Positions 32,605 through 33,296 of a stretch of 64,000 nucleotides of DNA are shown piece by piece. The notes below the pieces were generated by a model, which worked only from the letters and a program-made list of their open reading frames with translations, had not been told where the DNA came from and made no database searches. Numbering within the stretch: the stretch's first letter is position 1; every line of letters starts with the position of its first letter. This stretch comes from Pseudanabaena sp. FACHB-2040 (GTDB taxonomy: Bacteria > Cyanobacteriota > Cyanobacteriia > Phormidesmidales > Phormidesmidaceae). The stretch lies in NCBI RefSeq assembly GCF_014696715.1, contig NZ_JACJQO010000022.1, positions 310,001 to 374,000 on the forward strand, in the 5' to 3' direction. The position numbers and the translations under genes are program-made.

Positions 32605-32816
32605 CCTAACATTTATCGCGGTTTCAAATTCCTCATGGGACGAGTTTTGATCTTTCCTGTCCCTTTCCAAGCGGGGAATGGTGGAGCAGCTTTGCCTTAA
32701 GAATTCGAAAGCACCAAAACTCATTAGATCAACCAATTCTAAAATTGTTGCCAACCCTTATTAATTCAATCTCTATGGTTGAAGTTCCTAAGCGGTTCTG
32801 ATACTTTGGGTAATTG
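32605..32816. other. Intergenic region, presumed promoter of the 77-residue gene
   Basis: The minus-strand frame at 32542-32754 has no ribosome-binding site and overlaps the repeat, so I reject it. A plausible plus-strand -10-like GATACT near 32800 would start a transcript close to the structured region, but no good -35 is seen. Confidence 0.4.
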
Positions 32817-32970
32817 CAAGGCTTACGAGCCTAGCGGGAGGAAAGAGTATTGCGAGTACTCAATCCCCCCTAACGTCCCAACTTATCACCGGTAAGCTGA
32901 CACGCTAGGCTCAATTTTAAGGGCCAGCGTCTCTTTTGCCTACCGAAGGGGCGCTAGCAGCTAAGCCTTG
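32817..32970 (+). ncRNA. Structured leader RNA upstream of the 77-residue gene
   Basis: Four nested helices can be drawn. P1 is CAAGGCTTA (32817-32825) with TAAGCCTTG (32962-32970). P2 is GAGCCTAGCG (32827-32836) with CGCTAGGCTC (32903-32912). Inside P2 is a hairpin GAGTA/TACTC (32845-32861). P4 is AGCGTCT (32926-32932) with GGGCGCT (32949-32955), using two G-U pairs. Together they form a three-way junction. GCTTAC (32821-32826) can instead pair with GTAAGC (32892-32897), which excludes P1. Such a switch, 31 bases before a start codon, suits a riboswitch or protein-binding leader. It matches no RNA family I can recall. Confidence 0.6.
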
Positions 32971-33001
32971 TTTTCCTTCAACACCGCAAGGTAGGTAAAA
33001 C

Positions 33002-33235
33002 ATGACGACTTCATTAAACCTGGACATCCTCCGGGCAATTCCTTCTGGCAATCAAGAAAAGATCAAGCACATCCTGATGGGTGATTATGAGGCAATCCTC
33101 AGCACTCAAGATTTTCTAGCCACAGTTAAGTACGCTGACAAAAAATTCTGGAGTGACCCACAACCCATAGGCACCACTGGAGAATATATCAGCGTTCTAA
33201 TTAGAAGAAGCGCTTCTAAGCCAGCTTCAAATTAG
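33002..33235 (+). CDS. Small protein of unknown function (77 residues)
   Basis: Reads MTTSLNLDILRAIPSGNQ at the start, then an IKHILMGDYEAILSTQDFL helix region, VKYADKKFWSDPQPIG and a beta-like EYISVLIRR end. It is soluble-looking with no signal peptide, and I recognise no family. AGGTAGG lies about eight bases before the ATG. The structured leader in front and a strong terminator just behind define a one-gene transcription unit, which makes a real and regulated gene very likely. Confidence 0.8.
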   Translation: MTTSLNLDILRAIPSGNQEKIKHILMGDYEAILSTQDFLATVKYADKKFWSDPQPIGTTGEYISVLIRRSASKPASN

Positions 33236-33265
33236 CCTTCCAAAACTTAACTTAAAAAGCTAGAG

Positions 33266-33296
33266 CCTCTTCCGAAATCCTTTGGAAGGGGTTTTT
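33266..33296 (+). terminator. Rho-independent terminator of the 77-residue gene
   Basis: Stem CCTCTTCC (33266-33273) with GGAAGGGG (33284-33291), one G-U pair, a 10-nt loop and TTTTT directly after. It lies 30 bases past the stop codon. Confidence 0.93.

Follow-up and report, generated by a model that had tools for sequence, protein, structure and literature searches.

The regulatory RNAs nearest in kind to the element described here are the glutamine riboswitches of the glnA (RF01739) and Downstream-peptide (RF01704) classes. These occur as 5' leaders in cyanobacteria, and Downstream-peptide RNAs precede cyanobacterial ORFs of 17-100 residues without a known family (PMC2864571). The RNA analyzed in this study differs from the glutamine riboswitches in its larger multi-helix fold, its copy number of up to 60 per genome, the association with another protein family, and the lack of an Rfam match to either class. 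In kind, not in family, it also resembles riboswitches masking a ribosome-binding site (RBS), in which a P1-closed domain is followed by an SD hairpin upstream of the gene; unlike them, its copies precede paralogues of one or two unannotated families and not metabolic genes.

Many ribosomal proteins bind their own leader and limit their own translation, and the autogenous leaders of ribosomal-protein operons are structured leaders tied to one protein family. The RNA described here differs in being present in dozens of copies and in preceding other proteins in one distant genome, designated G054. Type I toxin-antitoxin mRNAs are structured, SD-masked mRNAs of small proteins found in many copies, and the usual type I toxins are small and hydrophobic; in contrast, the protein encoded behind the new leader is hydrophilic and conserved. 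The omega RNA of TnpB elements is a dispersed, multi-copy, transposon-linked RNA tied to an ORF, whereas the new RNA lies 5' of its ORF and carries a promoter-like box and an SD mask. A literature search revealed no description that we recognized as this RNA; a paper on 224 candidate RNAs might hold one.

The window, i.e., the whole stretch of 64,000 nucleotides analyzed here, corresponds to contig positions 310001-374000 of Pseudanabaena sp. FACHB-2040, the genome of which comprises 6.28 Mb in 44 contigs. It contains one copy of a real, covarying leader-RNA family that is absent from Rfam and has an unusual copy number and gene context. We consider it likely that this copy is a cis-acting regulatory leader of a family outside Rfam, with its own promoter-like box and a hairpin over the RBS of a small gene. 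The features of the locus, all on the plus strand, are as follows.

32779-32807, plus strand: promoter-like box in a conserved alignment block, TTGAAG (32779-32784) and TACTTT (32802-32807) separated by 17 nt.
32815-33001, plus strand: structured leader RNA, matched by model R1 at 32815-33004, with no Rfam match and with covariation in 22 leaders.
32817-32825, plus strand: 5' strand of P1, pairing with 32962-32970 (9 bp).
32827-32836, plus strand: 5' strand of P2, forming either a long P2 with 32903-32912 (10 bp) or a short P2' (32831-32834 with 32954-32957).
32836-32870, plus strand: P3 hairpin in two stacked parts, with both-side changes in 8 of 11 pairs and 89-91% of cells paired.
32882-32896, plus strand: P4 inner hairpin, CUUA/UAAG, with both-side changes in two of four pairs and 96.6% of cells paired.
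32926-32955, plus strand: P6 hairpin of the minimum-energy fold, 32926-32935 with 32946-32955.
32962-32970, plus strand: 3' strand of P1; six conserved columns of this helix are paired in all 22 leaders, three of them with both-side changes.
32970-33001, plus strand: P7 hairpin over the ribosome-binding region in the window fold, GUUUUCCUU with AAGG and AAAAC.
33002-33235, plus strand: 77-residue ORF of family 1, with 33 matches in its own genome, under purifying selection and without a match to a known family.
33262-33295, plus strand: terminator-like hairpin 3' of the gene (-20.6 kcal/mol, z -3.11) with a T-rich 3' side.

The window copy of the leader is approximately 190 bases long (32815-33004) and comprises six or seven helices. 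R1, a covariance model of groups A-C, matched the window leader with an E-value of 4.9e-33, the window leader itself being among the sequences from which R1 was built, and the window fold outperformed 199 of 200 shuffled sequences (z -3.89). An earlier note on this DNA had described a 9-bp closing stem, two further hairpins, and an RNA ending 31 nt before the start codon of a 77-residue gene; all of these are present, with the start codon of a 77-codon ORF at 33002, 31 nt after P1. Its 10-bp P2 was also found, but this helix is only one of two near-equal, overlapping conserved pairings. The same note had proposed an alternative pairing of 32821-32826 with 32892-32897. The two segments are complementary, but the pairing is not conserved: no compensatory change was found in 22 relatives, and 61.4% of cells were paired vs. 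a shuffle mean of 60.4%, a value attained by 172 of 500 shuffles.

The element starts earlier than had been supposed, as the promoter-like box belongs to it and between-copy similarity starts near 32773. The strong terminator reported behind the gene is borne out by the stable hairpin listed above, but a rule-based terminator scan after the window gene found none; moreover, this hairpin lies outside the homologous unit, since the resemblance among copies mostly breaks off at the stop codon. On the minus strand, a promoter-like word was observed at 32942-32914, with its -10 overlapping the conserved P5 loop (two antisense promoter-like sites in the region vs. 0.8 expected).

Conservation of the structure was assessed in 22 of the 49 leaders available (5 of subfamily A, 6 of B, and 38 of C), namely the window leader with four more of A, four of B, and 13 of C; in group C, 38 of 43 leaders had been kept, three with an insert and two without a recognized start being left out. 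The fold comprising P1, P2', P3, P4, and P5 showed both-side changes in 21 of 34 pairs (109 cells), with 91.2% of cells paired. None of 500 shuffles reached these values and slid versions of the fold gave at most 14 both-side cells vs. 109. In the count of further pair types, the fold did not exceed the shuffles (174 of 500). Many compensatory changes, by which the earlier note had proposed to judge the element, were thereby found, three of the six conserved P1 pairs among them; P1 exchanges were of the types A-U/G-C and A-U/C-G. Long P2 and P2'/P5 use common bases and both score well. Taken alone, P2' had 100% of cells paired and both-side changes in two of four pairs, and long P2 had 91.5% and two of eight pairs. 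The fold with long P2 showed both-side changes in 18 of 33 pairs (97 cells), a pair count reached by one of 500 shuffles, and its further pair types were likewise not above shuffles. As judged from the alignment, both pairings may be real and exchanging, or one may be an echo of the other.

In the sister groups D and E, which were folded separately, 35 of 43 leaders were kept (eight had no recognized start) and 17 of the 35 were aligned. Both-side changes were found in 14 of 25 predicted pairs. An alignment of 77 matches to R2, the covariance model of these groups, showed both-side changes in 24 of 25 pairs and in 348 cells, compared with 106.8 in shuffles, and the counterpart of P6 covaried in four of four modeled pairs; the alignment was produced by fitting to the model and includes two rows from the reverse strand. 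None of 500 shuffles equaled it on any measure, and slid versions gave at most 78 cells vs. 348. R1 detected 8 of 15 group D/E loci tested (E 4.8e-10 to 0.039), which supports a common descent of the subfamilies. An extra stretch of about 100 nt between P5 and P6 was seen in L067, L068, and L089, all in genome G022 (L089 is from Oscillatoria sp. CS-180).

No Rfam family matched the window leader, either at gathering scores or, in a scan of 6 kb of sequence, at E-values up to 1, an outcome that the earlier note had named as support for a new element; across several thresholds, the gathering score was reached by no leader scanned. A truncated snoRNA hit at the 5' border of the isolated 241 nt (E 6.4), RF00043 in L137 (28.1 bits vs. 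a gathering score of 55, E 0.82), and RF01791 in the L149 leader (E 7.2) were regarded as chance matches. In some group E leaders, part of the sequence resembles the cobalamin B12 box. RF01739, RF01704, and RF00174 were absent from the window and L149 leaders up to E 10 and from ten loci up to E 5, in line with the dissimilarity to glutamine riboswitches noted earlier. These scans, in which neither class appeared, make it barely credible that the leader is a divergent known riboswitch, e.g., of the glutamine (glnA, Downstream-peptide) or cobalamin class, even though Downstream-peptide RNAs also precede small cyanobacterial ORFs (PMC2864571).

Between P1 and the start codon, the RNA folds into a hairpin that covers an SD-like site, and the sequence of this hairpin differs by subfamily: GUUUUC/GAAAAC in group C, UUCUGGUUUCC/GGAGACCAGAA in groups D/E, and GGGAUUCC/GGAAUCCC in a further subfamily. 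In the window genome, these tails could be folded for 52 of 55 ORF-linked leaders, three having no start codon by the rule used. Compared with shuffled tails they folded more stably, with a mean z of -2.75 and 28 of 52 ahead of every one of 50 shuffles; the SD-like word was at least 75% paired in all 50 leaders having one. When whole leaders were folded, the mean unpaired probability of the SD was 0.34, 0.22, 0.19, and 0.08 in groups C, A, B, and E, respectively, the SD being mostly masked with or without forced P1. Forcing P1 led to more SD exposure in 31 of 38 leaders of C, 5 of 5 of A, 2 of 4 of B, and 13 of 32 of E (of the 35 D/E leaders, two were deliberately omitted and one lacked an SD word).

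The SD hairpin also takes up bases from the 3' strand of P1, which suggests competition between the two helices in the modeled folds. The overlap of P1 and SD-hairpin bases (10.19 vs. 10.72 in shuffled tails) and the number of words that the 5' strand of P1 has in common with the SD region (4.71 vs. 4.41) were not above control, with such mimicry reaching p 0.05 in 2 of 52 leaders. From the folding models, we infer that P1 and the SD hairpin may constitute a switch.

The downstream ORF was analyzed in 56 pairs of copies, taken from the same genome or from different ones. In the 54 computable pairs, dN/dS ranged from 0.02 to 0.30, which indicates that the ORF is a working gene under purifying selection; the lowest dS among the 56 pairs was 0.147. 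The predicted structure is beta-alpha-beta-beta (pLDDT 78.9, pTM 0.60). Fold searches gave a best Foldseek E-value of 0.25 and a best VIA-align Z of 3.9 over 50 residues, and no RNA-binding fold was recognized among the results; the PAH regulatory domain, MinE, and the papillomavirus E2 DNA-binding domain led the fold lists with insignificant scores. When the window protein and 70 relatives were compared with five libraries, no match was found at E < 0.01. LexA DNA-binding (Pfam; 3 of 70 relatives, E 0.037), Cmr1 (PADLOC; 1 of 70, E 0.017), and the best hits in NCBIfam (E 0.057), PHROGs (E 0.046), and PDB sequences (E 0.26) were not accepted as matches. At two positions, the family-1 ORFs of L086 and L114-L117 are enlarged in frame by about 8-20 residues, which gives the impression that small repeats had been inserted.

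A structured leader, a masked SD, and many copies could also characterize a type I toxin-antitoxin-like locus, in which a structured, translation-blocked mRNA for a toxic peptide is paired with an antisense partner, and one weak antisense promoter-like word is present in the window. However, the family is hydrophilic (mean GRAVY -0.30, range -0.67 to -0.01 in 70 members), its proteins have 77 or more residues, and a 19-residue stretch at 1.6 or more occurs in one of the 70 members; we regard a toxin-antitoxin function as very improbable.

The window protein matched 33 times within its own genome, and 34 of 59 genomes, its own included, contained matches; the leader DNA was found at four places in its own genome (the window included) and at one in a congener. 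The covariance models gave 21 matches (R1, one being a weak reverse-strand echo) and 41 matches (R2) in the same genome, i.e., 60 loci after removal of the echo and one overlap. That the window element is one of 60 genomic copies was missing from the earlier note. A family-1 ORF lies within 900 nt downstream in 55 of the 60 copies and upstream in one, the profile used for this count including members of the same genome, and this linkage agrees with the cis-regulatory role that the note had assigned to the leader.

Five copies (L190-L193 and L320) have no ORF and appear decayed or solitary. L190 (C5:545554-545744) retains an intact SD hairpin in the absence of a family-1 ORF; an intact copy lies about 0.6 kb upstream of it in the same orientation. 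In G045, L350 (1659-1817) is a lone RNA copy without an ORF, followed by terminator-like sequence, and is perhaps a free RNA. These ORF-less copies argue against the interpretation of the RNA as a cis-acting leader.

Among relatives, R2 found matches in 36 of 59 genomes at E 0.01 and in 71 of 291 genomes sampled across the class at E 1e-4; R1 had hits in 18 of 59 genomes when E 0.1 was allowed, weak ones among them, and in 16 of 291 at E 1e-4. Copy counts in these large searches are lower bounds because few candidates per genome were scored. Named relatives include Leptolyngbya, Nodosilinea, Halomicronema, Adonisia, and Oscillatoria sp. CS-180. The family protein occurs on eight plasmid records, all of Nostocales, and no R1 or R2 match was found on the four of these plasmids examined. 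No phage record with the family protein was found, and viral contigs gave no match by the protein or by one RNA pattern.

In an all-against-all blastn comparison of 41 copies, the homologous unit started about 460-540 nt before the stop codon, and among the 120 longest of 258 alignments it ended near the stop codon in many; some pairs could be aligned farther, by as much as 114-162 nt on the downstream side or 660 nt on the upstream side. At the start of the unit is a promoter-like block, TTGAAC or TTGACG followed after 17-18 nt by TAnnnT. The pattern TTGAnn-N16-19-TAnnnT was present within 90 nt upstream of 43 of the 60 genomic copies, compared with 1.9 expected by shuffling. In L194, the promoter block is doubled in tandem just upstream of the RNA (TACGGTTGAACTGCTCGAT).

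The 60 copies on many contigs, the decayed copies, and the sharp unit edges in many pairs would also be compatible with a dispersed mobile unit, in which the RNA and the small ORF spread as a non-autonomous element and the RNA serves mobility. For 23 matches in Leptolyngbya sp. PCC 7375 and Adonisia turfae, 20 regions were fetched; 12 of them formed six pairs with common flanks on at least one side, while the other eight copies had no flank-sharing partner among the regions fetched, as a mobile unit might. Two partnerless copies were searched for an empty site in PCC 7375. One gave none, and the second site looks like a deletion because the last 23 nt of the ORF are kept. Since most copies are old, as the lowest dS implies, and under purifying selection, unalignable flanks are expected and do not prove transposition. 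Furthermore, no terminal repeats, recombinase, or target duplication were seen, no viral or phage copy was found, and the protein family shows no nuclease or transposase homology. The mobile-element interpretation is weaker than that of a cis-regulatory leader, and we consider it improbable.

In G054, the RNA precedes other genes. R2 found 34 copies in this genome at E 0.001; ORF1 (about 125 residues) lies within 1 kb after the RNA in 22 of them and ORF2 (about 108 residues) after 6 of the other 12, so that one or the other stands behind 28 of 34 copies and six copies have neither. The loci with ORF1 or ORF2 are L252-L280 and L334-L348. ORF1 had 47 matches in G054, whereas the other 58 genomes gave no match at E 0.001. 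No model match lies upstream of 25 of the 47 ORF1 copies; three of these 25 leaders were read and looked similar to the RNA by eye. ORF2 matched HTH_36 at E 0.0002, below the curated cut-off. Profile comparison of ORF1 with family 1 revealed no homology (E 0.21), and the family-1 profile found nothing among the ORFs behind the 12 non-ORF1 copies. In G058, G051, and G049, the ORFs read behind the copies (18 of 30 loci) appeared by eye to be diverged family-1 members, and in G211 the ORF behind the RNA belongs to family 1 by profile (E 3.1e-12).

These data bear on autogenous control, in which each small protein would bind its own leader and limit its own translation. The near one-to-one link between the RNA and family 1 in the window genome (55 of 60) is what such control would produce, and the protein, which is small, hydrophilic, and basic-ended, would suit an RNA-binding role. 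Against this, the RNA in G054 precedes ORF1 and ORF2, neither of which shows detectable homology to family 1; on four Nostocales plasmids, genes of family 1 stand without an R1 or R2 match; and no RNA-binding fold was recognized. We therefore regard autogenous control as unlikely. The occurrence of the RNA before other families in G054 makes a commonly sensed factor more plausible than regulation of each gene by its own protein. It is possible, but we hold it to be somewhat short of an even chance, that the leader represents a new riboswitch-like class, amplified to approximately 60 copies in a single 6.3-Mb genome, through which one intracellular signal would set the output of dozens of paralogous small-protein genes in a filamentous cyanobacterium, and which in another lineage also stands before at least one unrelated multi-copy family.

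The interpretation of the RNA as a leader is supported by comparison of its copies, which have a conserved, covarying structure, a promoter-like box, a masked start region, and a close association with one small-protein family; translational cis-regulation is the best-supported reading of the sequence data. Most likely, the family represents a new class of cis-acting leader that would control the translation of dozens of paralogous small genes. In the mechanism we propose, the leader would be transcribed from its own conserved promoter-like box, and the transcript would fold into a P1-closed multi-helix domain and, at its end, into a hairpin that covers the ribosome-binding site of the downstream gene. 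Binding of a trans-acting factor (a metabolite, an ion, or a protein) to P1-P6 may then change access to the start site, and in this way one signal could jointly set how strongly dozens of paralogues are translated.

About a quarter of the class genomes sampled carry this structured leader absent from Rfam, some of them in dozens of copies, and the leaders stand before protein families without annotation. The covariance models allow existing cyanobacterial transcriptome data to be re-read. If the RNA is a regulator, a single sensor copied before dozens of paralogues would represent an unusual regulatory logic, and its trigger would give a first handle on the role of these proteins.
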